From Candidatus Nitronereus thalassa (lineage in GTDB: Bacteria > Nitrospirota > Nitrospiria > Nitrospirales > UBA8639), in NCBI RefSeq assembly GCF_032191465.1, contig NZ_JAQOUE010000001.1, positions 2,821,501 through 2,885,500 of the forward strand: a stretch of 64,000 nt of DNA. The letters run 5' to 3'. Both the position numbers and the translations under genes were made by a program. How positions within the stretch are numbered: position 1 is the first letter of the stretch; every line of letters begins with the position of its first letter. Below, piece by piece: positions 47,697 through 53,923 of the stretch. The notes under the pieces are model-generated. The model saw only the letters and a program-made list of their open reading frames with translations, did not search any database and was not told the origin of the DNA.

Positions 47697-47757
47697 ATCC
47701 ACAGTTATCTCACTATCCTCGTTTCCTGTTTAATTGACCACCCAAAAACGTAAACCC

Positions 47758-49380
47758 ATGACACCATTGAATCAGACCTTTCATTTAGGGCCCGAGGCAG
47801 ATTATCTCGTTATTGGGAGTGGTGTCGCCGGACTGCGAGCGGCCATCGAACTCAGTCAACATGGTCGCGTGCTGATCATTACAAAAGGAAGCCGACGACA
47901 AAGTAATTCCGTTTATGCTCAAGGCGGGGTGGCTGTGGCGCTGAGCGAAGAAGACGATGTGAATCTTCATTTCACCGATACCATCAAAGCCGGTCATCAA
48001 CTTGGTCGCGAAGACGCGGCGCGGGCGCTCGTAGAAGAAGGTCCGATGCGTATACAAGAACTCATCGCCTGGGGCACCCAATTCGATAAAGTGGATGGTA
48101 AGTTTGTGTTTGCTAAAGAGGGTGCTCATAGCCGGGATCGAGTACTACGTGCGCAAGGCGATGCTACCGGCAATGAAATGATTCGCGTATTGCTTGAACA
48201 AGCTAAAAAACAAGGTCACATTCAATGGTTCGACCACCATTTTATCATGGACCTGTTGGTGCTTGATGGCCAATGCTGCGGAGTGAGGGTGGTCAATGAG
48301 GCCACTGGGCATCTTCAGGTGTTGCCTGCCAAGGCTGTCATCTTGACTACTGGCGGAGCCGGACAGGTATATGCCAGAACCACGAATCCGCCGAATGCCA
48401 CGGGAGATGGTTTTGCCATGGCGTACCGAGCGGGAGCCATTCTTGAGGATATGGAGTTTGTTCAATTTCATCCGACCTCCCTCTTTCATCAATCGAGTCC
48501 GCCATTCTTGCTTTCAGAAACGATGAGGGGGGAAGGGGGTCTTCTCCGAAACCGTAAAGGCGAGTTGTTCATGCCGAAGTACCATCCGTCCGCGGAGCTT
48601 GCGCCAAGAGATATTGTGGCTCGGGCTATTTGGTCGGAAATGGCCGCATCACGTTCACGTCATGTGTATTTGGATGTAACCCATTTGGGCAGTGCCTATA
48701 TCAAGAAGCGGTTTCCCACCATTTATCAAACCTGCTTGCGGGTGGACATTGATATTACCGAGGAATGGATTCCTGTCTCACCGAGTGCTCATTATTTCAT
48801 GGGGGGAATCAAGGCGAATATTGATGGGGAAACTTCCCTGCCTGGCTTGTTAGCCGCAGGTGAAGCCGCCTGTAATGGAGTGCATGGGGCCAACCGATTG
48901 GCGAGCAATTCTTTATTAGAAGGATTGGTCTTTGGTGTCCGTGCCGCGCATTCTGCGGCGCAGTGGACTCCAACTATCAAGGGTAAAGACCGCAAGCATG
49001 GGTTGGCGAATCTCGAGTTTGGCCCCAAGCGAACTTTAGAGGATGCCGAAAAACTTCGGAATTCCTTGCGGCGTCTAATGTGGGATCAAGTGGGATTAGT
49101 CCGTACCGGCGACTCTCTCACCAAGGCCTTGGCCAAAATTTCTGCTTGGGAACCCCAGGTTCAGGGATTTCTTCATACCCGGCCTGACTTAGAAGTAAAA
49201 AATATGATGCAGGTGGCGAGGTGTATCACGGAAGCCGCCTTGTGGCGAGAACATAGTCTTGGCGCGCATTACCGAGCAGATTTCCCAGGTTGCAAAGGAT
49301 CGGCGTGGAAGATTCATAGTCAGATTCAATGTCCAGAATCCGAACGCCCGACACCGACTCCACAATTAAAAATTGTGTAA
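47758..49380 (+). CDS. nadB: L-aspartate oxidase
   Basis: 540 residues from ATG 47758 (TTG 47734 is also in frame). FAD enzyme oxidising aspartate to iminoaspartate in NAD synthesis. Dinucleotide motif VIGSGVAGLRAAIEL, then SVYAQGGVA, MEFVQFHPTSL and HYFMGGIKANIDGETSLPGLLAAGEAACNG-type sequence (partly cited), ending with the helical C-terminal domain. Succinate dehydrogenase/fumarate reductase flavoproteins are relatives, but the SVYAQGG region and length favour NadB. Confidence 0.93.
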   Translation: MTPLNQTFHLGPEADYLVIGSGVAGLRAAIELSQHGRVLIITKGSRRQSNSVYAQGGVAVALSEEDDVNLHFTDTIKAGHQLGREDAARALVEEGPMRIQELIAWGTQFDKVDGKFVFAKEGAHSRDRVLRAQGDATGNEMIRVLLEQAKKQGHIQWFDHHFIMDLLVLDGQCCGVRVVNEATGHLQVLPAKAVILTTGGAGQVYARTTNPPNATGDGFAMAYRAGAILEDMEFVQFHPTSLFHQSSPPFLLSETMRGEGGLLRNRKGELFMPKYHPSAELAPRDIVARAIWSEMAASRSRHVYLDVTHLGSAYIKKRFPTIYQTCLRVDIDITEEWIPVSPSAHYFMGGIKANIDGETSLPGLLAAGEAACNGVHGANRLASNSLLEGLVFGVRAAHSAAQWTPTIKGKDRKHGLANLEFGPKRTLEDAEKLRNSLRRLMWDQVGLVRTGDSLTKALAKISAWEPQVQGFLHTRPDLEVKNMMQVARCITEAALWREHSLGAHYRADFPGCKGSAWKIHSQIQCPESERPTPTPQLKIV

Positions 49381-49457
49381 GTGATGATGGTCAGTAATCC
49401 TAATCCTCCTTCCTAGTCTCATCTTTCACTTGTCATCCTGAGCCAGCGGCGAAGGAT

Positions 49458-49735
49458 CTGCATTTATCTTGCGGGCTTTCGCGCCCGCGCGACGAGTCAC
49501 TTTTGTTTCGGCAAAAGTGACCAAAACCATTCATGCCCGTTCGCGGCCCTCCAGAGAATGGTCAAAAAGCTTACCATTCTCTTCCGGGTCCCTCCGCCTT
49601 CGTTCCGAATAAGATGGCTCGGGAACTCGCTCCGAAGTGCAAAGCCACCTCTCCGCTCAAACAGCCCTCGCCGAAAAGTCGATTCGGGACTCCAGCTCCG
49701 CCGCGCCCAACGCAGCTAAAGATAAGCCGCCCGTG
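49458..49735 (+). repeat. two-hairpin repeat, left copy
   Basis: Structured element with hairpin GCGGGC/GCCCGC (about 49471-49488) and hairpin GTCACTTTTG-tttcgg-CAAAAGTGAC (49496-49521), followed by about 200 bp related to 51312-51552 on the opposite strand. The second stem shows compensatory changes between copies. The gap 49381-49997 holds otherwise only unassigned sequence and the cassette boundary. Confidence 0.7.
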
Positions 49736-49982
49736 TAGTTCTCTTTACTGTGCTCTCGAAAAAAAGAATTGGACACAAATTCTAATTGGTGAAATCTTCC
49801 TTATCCTAAATCTTTACAGGGATTGGTGTTATGCAATCCGCATAAGATGCCAGATAAATGAGCACATAGGCCTAACTGATTGAAACGCCAAAGACTCAGG
49901 CTTATACTTCGGAAAGATCAATGGCATGTTATCCGGACAGAAACCCTAAGATCAGGGTCTTGCAAGGATCCATCTAAACCTT

Positions 49983-49992
49983 GTTAGAGGTC
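49983..49992 (+). other. integron cassette 1 left boundary (core site G/TTAGAGG)
   Basis: CTTGTTAGAGGTC (49980-49992) is the exact reverse complement of GACCTCTAACAAG at 50556-50568. In integron cassettes the cassette start and the R'' core of its own attC are complementary, so insertion lies after G49983. Confidence 0.65.
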
Positions 49993-49997
49993 ATTAA

Positions 49998-50549
49998 GTG
50001 AGGCCACTGTTTACGATTCACGCAGGGGAATTTGTGGTCGGTGACCACATCGAGCGCAAGTTCCGGCGAGTCAATCTTTGGGTCCCATCCCGAGATGTAG
50101 GCACCGATCTCTTGGTGACAGACTCAGGGAATGAAAAAGCGATTTCCCTACAGGTTAAGTTCTCGCGAGATTTCCTTGCTACACACATGCCCTCCATATT
50201 TCAAAAGCCATTGAGGGCTTGCGGCTGGTGGTCCCTGAATCTCGACAAAATCGCGAAATCTAAAGCCGATTATTGGGTTTTTGTGTTGGTTGGCTTCGAG
50301 CGCCGTAGTACGAATTTTGTAATTATCAAACCGTCTGAACTGCTCATCCGGCTCAAGGCAATTCACAAGAAAAGGAAATCCATACAGAGCTATCTTTGGG
50401 TAACGGAGAAAAATCGTTGTTGGGAATCTCGCGGCTTAAAGCGCCAAGAACAACTGGCAATCGCTCAAGGACAGTACTCGAACGGCGAGCGAGACTTCTC
50501 CGCATATCTCAATAACTGGGGACCAATTCAAGCGCTCAACGGAAAGTAG
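49998..50549 (+). CDS. integron-cassette protein, possible PD-(D/E)XK nuclease fold
   Basis: 183 residues from GTG 49998; GAGGT of the cassette core serves as ribosome-binding site 6 bases upstream, as is common for cassette genes. The spacing GTDLLVTD ... ISLQVKFSRD fits a D ... QVK nuclease-like core, seen in DUF4365-type and restriction-like proteins. The rest is not recognised. The gene is bounded by cassette core sequences on both sides, so it was acquired as a mobile cassette. Confidence 0.6.
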   Translation: MRPLFTIHAGEFVVGDHIERKFRRVNLWVPSRDVGTDLLVTDSGNEKAISLQVKFSRDFLATHMPSIFQKPLRACGWWSLNLDKIAKSKADYWVFVLVGFERRSTNFVIIKPSELLIRLKAIHKKRKSIQSYLWVTEKNRCWESRGLKRQEQLAIAQGQYSNGERDFSAYLNNWGPIQALNGK

Positions 50550-50555
50550 AAAGAT

Positions 50556-50640
50556 GACCTCTAACAAGCGCATGGAGTCGGACTCGCTACTTCGGTGCTT
50601 CGCAACGCCTTCTCTCGCCGTTCACGCGTAGCATTAAGGC
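50556..50640 (+). other. attC-like recombination site 1
   Basis: About 85 bp from GACCTCTAACAAGCG (R''-like) to GTAGCATTAAGGC (R'-like, the usual GTT altered to ATT), with internal self-complementary sequence around GGAGTCGGACTCGC. It ends 6 bases before the next start codon, the typical cassette arrangement. Confidence 0.6.
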
Positions 50641-50646
50641 GCAGAA

Positions 50647-51139
50647 ATGACTCTTCGGACTCCAAATATCTCTTTGTTAGTGTCCCGAGAGGAAATATCG
50701 GAGTTCTACCTCGCTTTCTCCCGATACGAGTTCGCTCTTAAAGCTTCCGGCTTTGCCAAGCAAACTGACCGTGGAGCACAAGTTGATTGGGACAAACTTG
50801 CTGAAACGCTAGGTGAACTCGACGAACTTTTGTCACGTCAACGATCTGCAGTTGAAGAGCTACTGGATCGTCCGCCCAAGAAGCTCAATCTCCTCGAAAA
50901 CGATCAACTCAAGTGGCAGGATGATCCCCCACGGCCTAGTTGTTCGCCGACCCGCGTTTTTTTTGTATCGGATACAGATGTTACGCAATAACCTCATGCA
51001 TGGTTCAAAGTTCATTGACCAAGGGACACTAGATCCGCAGCGGGAGACTAGACTCCTCGCCGCTGCAATGGCCGCGGTAGAGATCATTGTTGCCCACTTG
51101 CCTGACACTCAACGGGCGTTCAACAGTCCTGCGCACTAA
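50647..51139 (+). pseudogene. frameshifted HEPN-like cassette gene
   Basis: The first frame (50647-50991) encodes an all-helical protein (FSRYEFALKASGFA, VDWDKLAETL, DELLSRQRSAVEELL) that loses sense after DDPP. The next frame continues it with GLVVRRPAFFLYRIQMLRNNLMHGSKF ... to 51139 (motif partly cited). Removing one C from the CCCCC run at 50926-50930 joins both parts. RNNLMH matches the R-x4-6-H motif of HEPN RNases, common in toxin-antitoxin and defence loci. Either a real loss of function or a sequencing error in a homopolymer. Confidence 0.65.
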
Positions 51140-51195
51140 GAATTTATTCAAGCCGGTCCGCGCTTCGCGGGTCGGCTTAATTCAAGCGTTACACC
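51133..51195 (+). other. attC-like recombination site 2 (59-base-element type)
   Basis: CACTAAGAATTTATTCAAGC at the left and GGCTTAATTCAAGCGTTACAC at the right (21 bases; core GCGTTAC) flank hairpin 51150-51178, AAGCCGGTCCGCG / CGCGGGTCGGCTT with two mismatches. The layout closely follows the well-known aadA-type attC sites (TAACAATT ... TTCAAGCCG ... CGGCTTAA ... CAAGCGTTA). The outer core bases are degenerate. Confidence 0.72.
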
Positions 51196-51311
51196 AAAAA
51201 TGTAACTTAGTACCTCATTCTGTTACATGGAATCTGAGTTTTGCAGAGGAAACCCTTTAAAATTTGATTGCTAATTTTGCATGGAGGAGGGAATCTAGTT
51301 TGAACTTTTTT

Positions 51312-51552
51312 CTTTAATGCCTTCCCGCCTTCGGGCGCGGCGGAGCCGCGGTGCCGAATTCGACTATTCTGGCGAGGGCTGTCTGAGTGGAGAGGCGGCT
51401 GTTTACCTCGGAACGAGTTCCCGAGCCATATAATTCGGGACTGGGGCGGAGAGTCACCGGAGGGCGCGCACGGGCGGAAATGGTTTTGGGTCCTTTTGCC
51501 GAAACAAAAGGACCTCGTCGGCGGGGGCGAAACCCTGCATATAAATAATTAC
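51312..51552 (-). repeat. two-hairpin repeat, right (inverted) copy
   Basis: Inverted homologue of 49458-49735. Hairpin GGTCCTTTTG-ccgaaa-CAAAAGGACC (51489-51514) and the GC-rich stem toward 51530 correspond to those of the left copy. A protein-like frame across it has no family resemblance and is treated as spurious. Between attC 2 and this repeat (51196-51311) lies A/T-rich sequence with a short GTTACA/TGTAAC dyad. Confidence 0.68.
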
Positions 51553-52410
51553 TCAAATCGATTCAGCGATATGCTTCTCATACAAATGCTGAATCGTTTT
51601 CGTTATTGACCTTTCCCGGCTCGACGTCAACGGTCGAGTCTCGATTGTATTAACCGGCAAAACCCCAAACCCCGTATTCGTCAAAAACGCTTCATCGGCG
51701 TCCCATAGGTCTTCGGGTTGGTACATGCCTTCTTGAACGTCTATGCCTTCCTCTTTAGCCAATTCCAGCACAATTTCTCTCGTGATTCCCGGAAGAATTC
51801 CGCATTGGAGTGAGGGCGTGTGAAGTCGCTGCTCCTTGGCAAAGAAGAAATTACTTGTGGTGCATTCAGCGAGAAATCCTTCGGTGTTTAATAGAATGCC
51901 ATCGAAGGTGTGGGCATTGATTGCTTCTTGTTTGGCCAGAATATTATTCAGATAGTTGAGGGACTTCACTTGTGATGGCAAGGCCAAGGAAGGTTGTCGT
52001 CGTGTGTTAAGGATGGTGAGACTCACGCCATGTTTTTTTTGATCTTTCGAAAGTTGAGGCACTGGCCTTGGGAACATGACAATCGTCGAGTTTGAGCATC
52101 CTGACGGATCAGGACCGACTCCACCAACTCCGCGCGAAATGGTGATGCGAATCATGGAATGGTGCAAGTCATTCCGTTCGACGACTTCTTGAAGAAGAGT
52201 CTCCCACTCTGGGTGAGGTGTAGGAAGAGAAAGGCCAAGCAACTCACACGACTGGTGTAATCTCTGAAGATGGCGATTGAGAAAGAGGAGTCGTGTGTCA
52301 TACACACGTAGCGTCTCAAACACTCCATCGCCAAACAAGAAGCCACGATCAAATACGGAAATTCGGGCTTGGTCATCTTCAACAAATTGTTGGTTGAGAT
52401 ACACCCACAT
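51553..52410 (-). CDS. pabC: aminodeoxychorismate lyase / branched-chain aminotransferase-like
   Basis: 285 residues from ATG 52410. PLP fold type IV: the start VYLNQQFV ... ISVFDRGFLFGDGVFET, the lysine in QVKSLNYLNN, and EGFLAECTTSNFFF. The gene lies 13 bp after pabB on the same strand, which favours 4-amino-4-deoxychorismate lyase (folate synthesis) over D-amino-acid or branched-chain aminotransferase. A longer frame upstream would overlap pabB and is not adopted. Confidence 0.82.
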   Translation of the reverse strand: MWVYLNQQFVEDDQARISVFDRGFLFGDGVFETLRVYDTRLLFLNRHLQRLHQSCELLGLSLPTPHPEWETLLQEVVERNDLHHSMIRITISRGVGGVGPDPSGCSNSTIVMFPRPVPQLSKDQKKHGVSLTILNTRRQPSLALPSQVKSLNYLNNILAKQEAINAHTFDGILLNTEGFLAECTTSNFFFAKEQRLHTPSLQCGILPGITREIVLELAKEEGIDVQEGMYQPEDLWDADEAFLTNTGFGVLPVNTIETRPLTSSRERSITKTIQHLYEKHIAESI

Positions 52411-52423
52411 ATTCAGGAATGTG

Positions 52424-53923
52424 CTAGAGAGGGGATTCCCGCAAAGCCTGAAAAAGCGCTTGGGCTTTTTGCATGGTCTCTTCGTATTCGCGTTGAGGTT
52501 GAGAATCGGCCACAATGCCGGCTCCGACCTGAAGATAGGCGCGGTCCTGCGAAAGGAGCAAGGTGCGAATGATAATATTGAAATCCATGTCCCCGGTCCA
52601 ACTCAGATAGCCGATCGATCCGGTATACGGCCCGCGCCGGACCGGCTCGAGTTCTTCGATAATTTCCATGCATCGGATTTTGGGAACACCCGTGATTGTG
52701 CCACCGGGAAAGATGGATTTGATTAAATCCTGTGCGTTGCACGTGGGACGAAGGGTTCCACCCACGTCTGAGACCAAATGGGCGACGTGTGAATATTGTT
52801 CCACGGTCATAAATTCATCGACCTGGACCGATCCGTATTCGCACACCCGCCCCAAGTCGTTTCTCGCCAGATCGACGAGCATGAGATGTTCCGCTCGTTC
52901 CTTTTTGTTTGCCAGAAGGTCTGCGGAGAATTGTTGATCTTCGAACGAGGATCTCCCTCGAGGGCGGGTGCCCGCAATGGGCCGTGTGGTGGCCTGATTA
53001 CCTCGAAGTTCGATAAGCCGCTCAGGCGAAGAAGACACCAATGTCAGTCGGTCGGTGGTCAATAACGCCGAGAATGGCGAAGGGTTGACCTTTCGCAGCT
53101 TGGCGTACAGTGCGTGTCCTGCTTCTTGAGTGGATTGTCCAGTACTTTGGTCCAAGTCAATGGAAAATCGATGGGAAATATTCGCTTGATAAATATCTCC
53201 TGCCCCGATGTATTCTTGGCATTGCAGAACTCGTTGAACATAGTCTGCCCGGCTTTGATTCGCGTGAATAGCTCGAGGTGTCACCAAAAGCGGTAGACTG
53301 AGATTGGTGTTTGGGGGAGAACTTAATTTCGCTTCAAATTCTGCGATCCGAATTTTTCCTTCACGAAGAAGCGCATCATGCGATTCAGATCGCAGCCGCT
53401 CGGGGGATGGAGTGAAAATGAGGTGAAGCATGTCTGTGGCGTGGTCAATCGCGGCAAAGAGATCCACGAAAAGAAATTCCATGTCGGGAAGGCGTAAATC
53501 ATTTGTGGCGATGGTTGGTAAACATTCAAATTGGCGAACGCAATCATAACTGAAAAACCCGACGGCTCCTCCGATAAAAGGGGGCAAACTCGTCGATCGG
53601 GGAATGCTTGAATGGTGAAGATGTTCGAATAGGGCCTGGAGGGGATCGCCAATTCCGTGGGTGACCGTACCTTGCGTGCGAATTTCATGTGTCATGCCGG
53701 TTCCGGAAAACGCGAGGTAGGGGTCGCTTCCCAAAAAGGAGTAACGCGCGAGGTTCCTGGGCCCTTTTCCACTTTCAAGCAGAAACGATTGCTTCGTAGG
53801 TGAGGCAATACGTTGATAGAGCTCAAAAGGTTGTTGACCGAGCAAAGGTTTGGAATGGATCAATGGAAACAAGTGCGTTTCGTCGAGCGACGATGTCTGT
53901 GGAAGAAGAAAAGGTTGCCCCAT
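52424..53923 (-). CDS. pabB: aminodeoxychorismate synthase component I
   Basis: 499 residues, chorismate-utilising enzyme. Motifs: GAVGFFSYDCVRQFE, IYQANISHRF, RPIAGTRPRG, LVDLARNDLGRV, PGGTITGVPKIRCMEII and YTGSIGYLSWTGDMDFNI. Anthranilate synthase component I (TrpE) is the alternative; the pabC-like neighbour supports the folate pathway. The glutaminase subunit is not adjacent. Confidence 0.88.
   Translation of the reverse strand: MGQPFLLPQTSSLDETHLFPLIHSKPLLGQQPFELYQRIASPTKQSFLLESGKGPRNLARYSFLGSDPYLAFSGTGMTHEIRTQGTVTHGIGDPLQALFEHLHHSSIPRSTSLPPFIGGAVGFFSYDCVRQFECLPTIATNDLRLPDMEFLFVDLFAAIDHATDMLHLIFTPSPERLRSESHDALLREGKIRIAEFEAKLSSPPNTNLSLPLLVTPRAIHANQSRADYVQRVLQCQEYIGAGDIYQANISHRFSIDLDQSTGQSTQEAGHALYAKLRKVNPSPFSALLTTDRLTLVSSSPERLIELRGNQATTRPIAGTRPRGRSSFEDQQFSADLLANKKERAEHLMLVDLARNDLGRVCEYGSVQVDEFMTVEQYSHVAHLVSDVGGTLRPTCNAQDLIKSIFPGGTITGVPKIRCMEIIEELEPVRRGPYTGSIGYLSWTGDMDFNIIIRTLLLSQDRAYLQVGAGIVADSQPQREYEETMQKAQALFQALRESPL

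Follow-up and report, generated by a model that had tools for sequence, protein, structure and literature searches.

The window, by which we mean the whole 64,000-nucleotide stretch of DNA analysed, most likely carries an integrase-less integron remnant that is headed by an attI site, holds two gene cassettes and is enclosed in a repeat-bounded unit (probability roughly 0.82). This reading is built on the identity of the attI site and of the cassettes, the absence of an intact intI gene, and a unit layout that recurs in the genome; the presence of a single complete attC, with attC1 degenerate, counts against it. In the proposed course of events, attI would have taken up two gene cassettes through IntI recombination at G^TTA, and the subsequent disappearance of intI would have immobilised the cassettes and frozen the integron. 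The attI-cassette block would have been dispersed around the genome in the form of repeat-bounded units, either via a transposase acting in trans or through recombination between the repeats, and the cassette genes would be transcribed from attI, likely from Pc. The layout of the locus, in a genome of 4.01 Mb (two contigs, completeness 98.7%), is as follows.

47734-49380, forward strand: nadB-like gene (L-aspartate oxidase, named from sequence), left neighbour; open reading frame
49462-49720, forward strand: left arm, a dispersed repeat of ~230-250 bp with 48 matches in the genome
49821-49986, forward strand: attI, the conserved integron platform site, with a 66-bp core at 49921-49986 and the crossover G^TTA at 49983/49984
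49880-49908, forward strand: candidate Pc, a promoter-like TTGAAA-17-TATACT inside attI
49980-49994, forward strand: left half of the inverted repeat (15 nt), start of cassette 1, with R' box GTTAGAG
49998-50549, forward strand: cassette 1 gene, 183 aa, GTG start, intact; open reading frame
50554-50568, forward strand: right half of the inverted repeat, holding the attC1 R'' CTCTAAC (50559-50565)
50559-50645, forward strand: attC1, decayed, as judged by comparison with L025, folding and the lack of an R1 call
50647-51139, forward strand: cassette 2 gene, frameshifted, start ATG at 50647 or GTG at 50680; open reading frames in two frames
51134-51194, forward strand: attC2, 61 bp, an aadA/catB8-like 59-base element
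51303-51560, reverse strand: right arm, an inverted copy of the left arm
51553-52515, reverse strand: pabC/ilvE-like aminotransferase gene (named from sequence), right neighbour; open reading frame with orthologues in G027, G028 and G016

Repeat-bounded units and their cargo

The inverted arms that enclose the window's attI and cassettes belong to a repeat whose genomic matches often form convergent pairs 0.6-2 kb apart, with cargo that includes a TIR protein, HNH and SNase-like nucleases, a nucleotidyltransferase/HEPN-like pair (this pair named from sequence) and unknowns. The genome holds nine attI copies and 16 repeat-bounded units, which make up 0.67% of its length. Eight of the nine copies lie inside these units, each of the eight, including that of the window, with different genes after attI; the ninth copy, a weak one, adjoins an arm-bounded unit. 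Many arms occur without attI. Among the 51 attI copies for which 1 kb of upstream sequence was available, 27 had an arm within that distance, and its orientation was identical in all 27.

The insertion site itself was compared among relatives. In G028 and G016, a nadB homologue is followed by a pabC homologue ~85-115 bp away with no insert, and in congener G027 arms lie beside nadB and beside pabC at the homologous site, where the 400 bp on the inner side of the left arm hold neither attI nor a cassette and the contigs break. Neither cassette had a match in congeners G026 and G027 among the matches listed. Given this, and the lack of attI at the G027 site, the cassettes are not kept in place among the congeners that were searched, whereas arms at the nadB-pabC site occur in both species. 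Since arms are present at the G027 site too, they may predate the cassettes. A precise empty site was not found for the unit, the homologous G027 site being itself armed; no transposase was seen for it, and no target-site duplication was evident by eye at the arm ends.

The lack of a transposase and of an evident duplication is compatible with plain decay, in which separately acquired chromosomal integrons would each have lost intI and the ~250-bp repeats would merely accumulate there, moving nothing. Such a history would also suit the frequent occurrence in the order of 5'-truncated intI remnants beside attI, the arms around unrelated cargo and the arms at the same site in G027. However, chance insertion would leave the orientation of the arm unfixed, and the single orientation in which it precedes attI in every case with a nearby arm, together with three tandem arm-attI-gene blocks in G029, argues against it; we consider plain decay unlikely, albeit a serious contender. 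Spread of an integrase-less, attI-headed remnant within repeat-bounded units is the account that we prefer.

Several other repeat-associated loci were observed. A TIR-domain gene with Thoeris/retron-TIR-like scores, possibly anti-phage in role, lies downstream of a decayed attI inside one of the repeat-bounded units (L089 8860-10092, G000:C1:3147k), and a nucleotidyltransferase/HEPN-like gene pair lies between two directly oriented arms (L073 1741-2656, G000:C1:1178k). In the complete genome of another genus, a ~65-bp piece of the arm repeat forms dense clusters (G028:C1:3434717-3462656 and 3619768-3646520). Immediately outside the left arm, at 49433-49461, the window has a second short dispersed repeat, TCATCCTGAGC...GAAGGATCT, which likewise lies outside the arms in L076 and L079.

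Identification of the attI site

A similarity search with the cassette region returned three further genome copies of the stretch preceding cassette 1, and in G027 that stretch stands directly behind an intI gene with one in-frame TGA. Ten attI copies, when aligned, are mostly alike as far as TTGTTA, beyond which unrelated genes follow; about 58 copies agree to that point and diverge afterwards. Their consensus, read by eye, is close to ATGGCGTGTTATACGGACAGAAA...GCAGATCCGGCTCTTATGCGGATCCGCCTAAACATTG^TTAGGC, the closing CCTAAACATTGTTAGG of which resembles the attI1 core. The end of intI, or of its remnant, lies 182-183 bp from the attI crossover at nine loci of other genomes (L018, L126, L128, L134, L160, L164, L166, L170 and L172); at L119 an intI remnant is 111 bp from attI. 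In the window, the stretch ahead of attI is instead taken up by the ~250-bp repeat. At a minimum of 14 attI loci, a same-strand attC called by the covariance model R1 (described below) follows at a distance of 0.4-3 kb downstream. Because of the constant distance behind intI, the divergence after TTGTTA and the downstream same-strand attCs, we identify 49821-49986, on sequence evidence, as a Nitrospirales attI, belonging to an integron in which intI reads toward attI. The possibility that the element is an attC was rejected from its unfolded bottom strand (z -1.0) and its position behind intI.

The TTGAAA stretch of the promoter-like site is kept among attI copies, and TTGAAA-17-TATACT-type sites are no more numerous in the region than expected by chance; from its sequence, the site inside attI is likely a candidate cassette promoter Pc. 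This conserved stretch, just upstream in the same block, and the start codons close behind would also suit a shared promoter or regulatory repeat before accessory genes, with the 66-bp element being no recombination site. We regard this as very unlikely, given the fixed distance behind intI at nine loci, the integron-type core CTAAACATTGTTAGGC with which the element closes, the end of conservation at G^TTA and the same-strand attCs that come after it. IntI1 is known to make insertions at secondary non-integron sites, and the spacer between nadB and pabC is intergenic sequence of the ordinary kind, so that the cassettes might have entered there via IntI with the upstream similarity coincidental, but the upstream 166 bp align throughout with the intI-linked attI of G027, and R2, a sequence model of the 66-bp attI core, gives 65.7 bits at 49921-49986, leaving such an entry highly improbable.

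The G027 locus (L018 4166-7084, G027:C78) comprises the intI gene with its in-frame TGA, attI and then an HsdM-like restriction-modification gene, and is a near-complete reverse-oriented integron.

Integrase genes and orphan attI sites

Across the window's genome, TIGR02249 produced no match above cut-off, and a search with intact Nitrospirales IntI agreed in detecting no intact intI. The sole trace is an 86-aa N-terminal remnant at C1:2471861-2472118 (L006; L024 9862-10119), ~400 kb from the window block, which best fits integron integrases and is fused to unrelated sequence. The other matches to these IntI searches were XerD and other recombinases: a match at C1:3141k was set aside as XerD, and those at C1:2707k and 2482k as open frames of <70 bits, far under the cut-off. 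Of the parts expected in a complete integron, the locus therefore has attI and lacks a functional intI beside it.

Within the family, R2 matched 108 attI copies in 26 of 49 genomes, with up to ten in one genome, and intI above the cut-off amounted to four genes in two of the 49, although draft genomes may conceal some intI, a limit that little affects the two-contig genome of the window. Orphan attI sites are therefore far commoner than integrases. Of 296 Nitrospirota genomes sampled, 70 had R2 matches, almost all of them genomes of the same order; intI above the cut-off was found in 20 of the order's 236 genomes, besides many 3' fragments. Ten other intact intI loci gave no match to the attI model, so that the order has more than one integron lineage.

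No description of a conserved attI with many copies in Nitrospirales turned up in the open-licence literature. Integron surveys based on intI and attC clusters overlook units in which an orphan attI heads a single cassette, and this attI is conserved enough for modelling, making such units countable. It also becomes a testable question whether integrase-less attI sites are dead relics or landing pads usable by an incoming integrase. As a speculation that we think more probably wrong than right, Nitrospirales might run a dispersed integron: many orphan attI sites, spread as repeat-bounded units, would each carry a small number of expressed accessory genes (nuclease-like, TIR, HNH), sometimes just one, and would be refilled at times when some other integron copy or a relative transiently provides an integrase.

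The two cassettes and their attC sites

The start of cassette 1, CTTGTTAGAGGTCAT (49980-49994), is the perfect reverse complement of ATGACCTCTAACAAG (50554-50568). The first-pass annotation had recognised 13 bases of this match with the R'' core, which in fact spans 15 nt. A 15-nt inverted repeat with its halves at most 1 kb apart occurs once in the actual window and in none of ten simulated 64-kb windows (Markov, with the same nearest-neighbour composition). The biologically meaningful part is GTTAGAGGTCATT / AATGACCTCTAAC, because homologous cassettes elsewhere start and stop there. Homologues that share 86-94% of their amino acids with the cassette 1 protein are encoded in Ca. Brocadia, in a groundwater bin and in two gammaproteobacterial MAGs. 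DNA similarity of 82-88% starts at the GTTAGAGGTCATT boundary in L025, L026 and L027 and stops at attC in L025 and L026. Cassette 1 is thus a block with G^TTRRRY-type ends, both of which are common to L025 and L026, and the left of which is found in L027; in L026 its gene stands immediately behind another attC. Sharing between phyla with fixed ends is as would be predicted of a mobile cassette. Plasmid and phage searches did not find cassette 1, and one 53% relative lies on an IMG/VR contig. The Ca. Brocadia copy (L025 3507-4055) has an in-frame TGA.

Neither window cassette gene had a match in Pfam, NCBIfam or PADLOC, and an Rfam search gave no relevant RNA. For the cassette 1 protein, AlphaFold gave a model with a mean pLDDT of 78.7 (four sequences), and Foldseek returned weak matches to the SPARDA nuclease (E 5e-4), Hjc and I-Ssp6803I, hinting at a predicted PD-(D/E)XK-like nuclease fold and, by extension, a tentative function.

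The R''/L'' half of attC1 (from 50559) resembles the attC of the Ca. Brocadia locus L025, and its other half is not recognisable. The site showed a fold z of -0.4 and was not called by R1; the L025 counterpart is intact, with a fold z of -5.8. From the sequence, the attC1 R' would be decayed, lost or displaced, with ATTAAGG near 50636 and an alternative R' GTTAGTG at 50676; a 124-bp attC1 using the latter was tried and set aside as weak (fold z -1.6).

The annotation's two cassette genes were both recovered, the first intact and the second divided between reading frames where eight T stand in a row (50957-50964), a frameshift that may be a true mutation or a sequencing (homopolymer) error. Homologues 36% identical to the N-terminal part of cassette 2 are present on three plasmids.

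The 59-base element that the annotation placed at 51133-51195 proved real at 51134-51194, where as attC2 it closes cassette 2. R1, an attC covariance model with a hand-set structure, was trained on plasmid class 1 integron attCs and one attC from a gammaproteobacterial MAG, with attC2 of the window excluded. Run over the window and the 4.01-Mb genome, it scored attC2 at 42.6 bits (E 4e-7 in the whole-genome search) and made one further call, C1:1630323-1630382 (E 1.1e-5), more than 1 Mb away; both calls fall in attI units. The bottom strand of attC2 folds well beyond shuffled sequences (z = -5.0). DNA similarity to attC2 extends to 1,424 plasmid records, mostly at 80-90% identity, the best of them matching at 79-87% over 61-71 bases at aadB, catB8 and aac(6')-IIa cassettes. 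attC2 is a genuine 59-base-element attC. A strict home-made attC finder missed it and gave chance matches in coding sequence; a relaxed version recovered plasmid attCs and attC2.

Comparison with known systems

Under the IntegronFinder 2 default, a CALIN has at least two attC sites and no intI (PMC9024848), and the window block, with one scoring attC, is formally not a CALIN. Two CALINs are on record for Ca. Nitrospira inopinata (PMC9024848), which the block resembles in having cassettes without intI, but it differs in being headed by attI, in its one scoring attC and in lying inside a repeat-bounded unit. The first-pass annotation was right that gene cassettes occur here without an integrase, there being no intI adjoining and none intact in the genome, and its term CALIN-like is apt to that extent only; in taking the block for a mere attC/cassette cluster, it overlooked the attI at the head. 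Its remark that such clusters are rarely considered for nitrite oxidisers is fair, apart from those already reported in Ca. Nitrospira inopinata.

Integron mobilisation units, or MITE-flanked defective class 1 integrons, consist of a piece of an integron, lacking the integrase, that is enclosed by miniature repeats in inverted orientation. The window unit shares with them the inverted repeats that flank an integrase-less integron fragment, whereas its arms, of ~230-250 bp, are chromosomal, occur in many copies and enclose cargo of various kinds; there is no known helper transposase, and the attI that is kept comes from another lineage. By analogy, this MITE-type arrangement would be the nearest one described, and its outline fits. 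TIME-COMP elements are related to MITE-flanked integron units (PMC13367494).

Chromosomal integrons of Treponema are reverse-oriented, with intI reading toward attI (PMC3607928). The likeness lies in the direction of intI along the cassettes and in the remnants left after integron loss, but Nitrospirales have many attI copies per genome, and no long cassette arrays were seen. Delta-attI-type cassettes of mobile integrons (PMC12901181) are comparable in that tandem genes are flanked by attI-type sites, as in G029 and G154; the Delta-attI sites, however, are of class 1, lie on resistance plasmids and have had their recombination tested, whereas the sites here are chromosomal ones identified from sequence. 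The tandem arm-attI-gene blocks of G029 (L142, G029:C1:1805500-1816500) all share one orientation and are spaced 3.0 and 1.7 kb apart.
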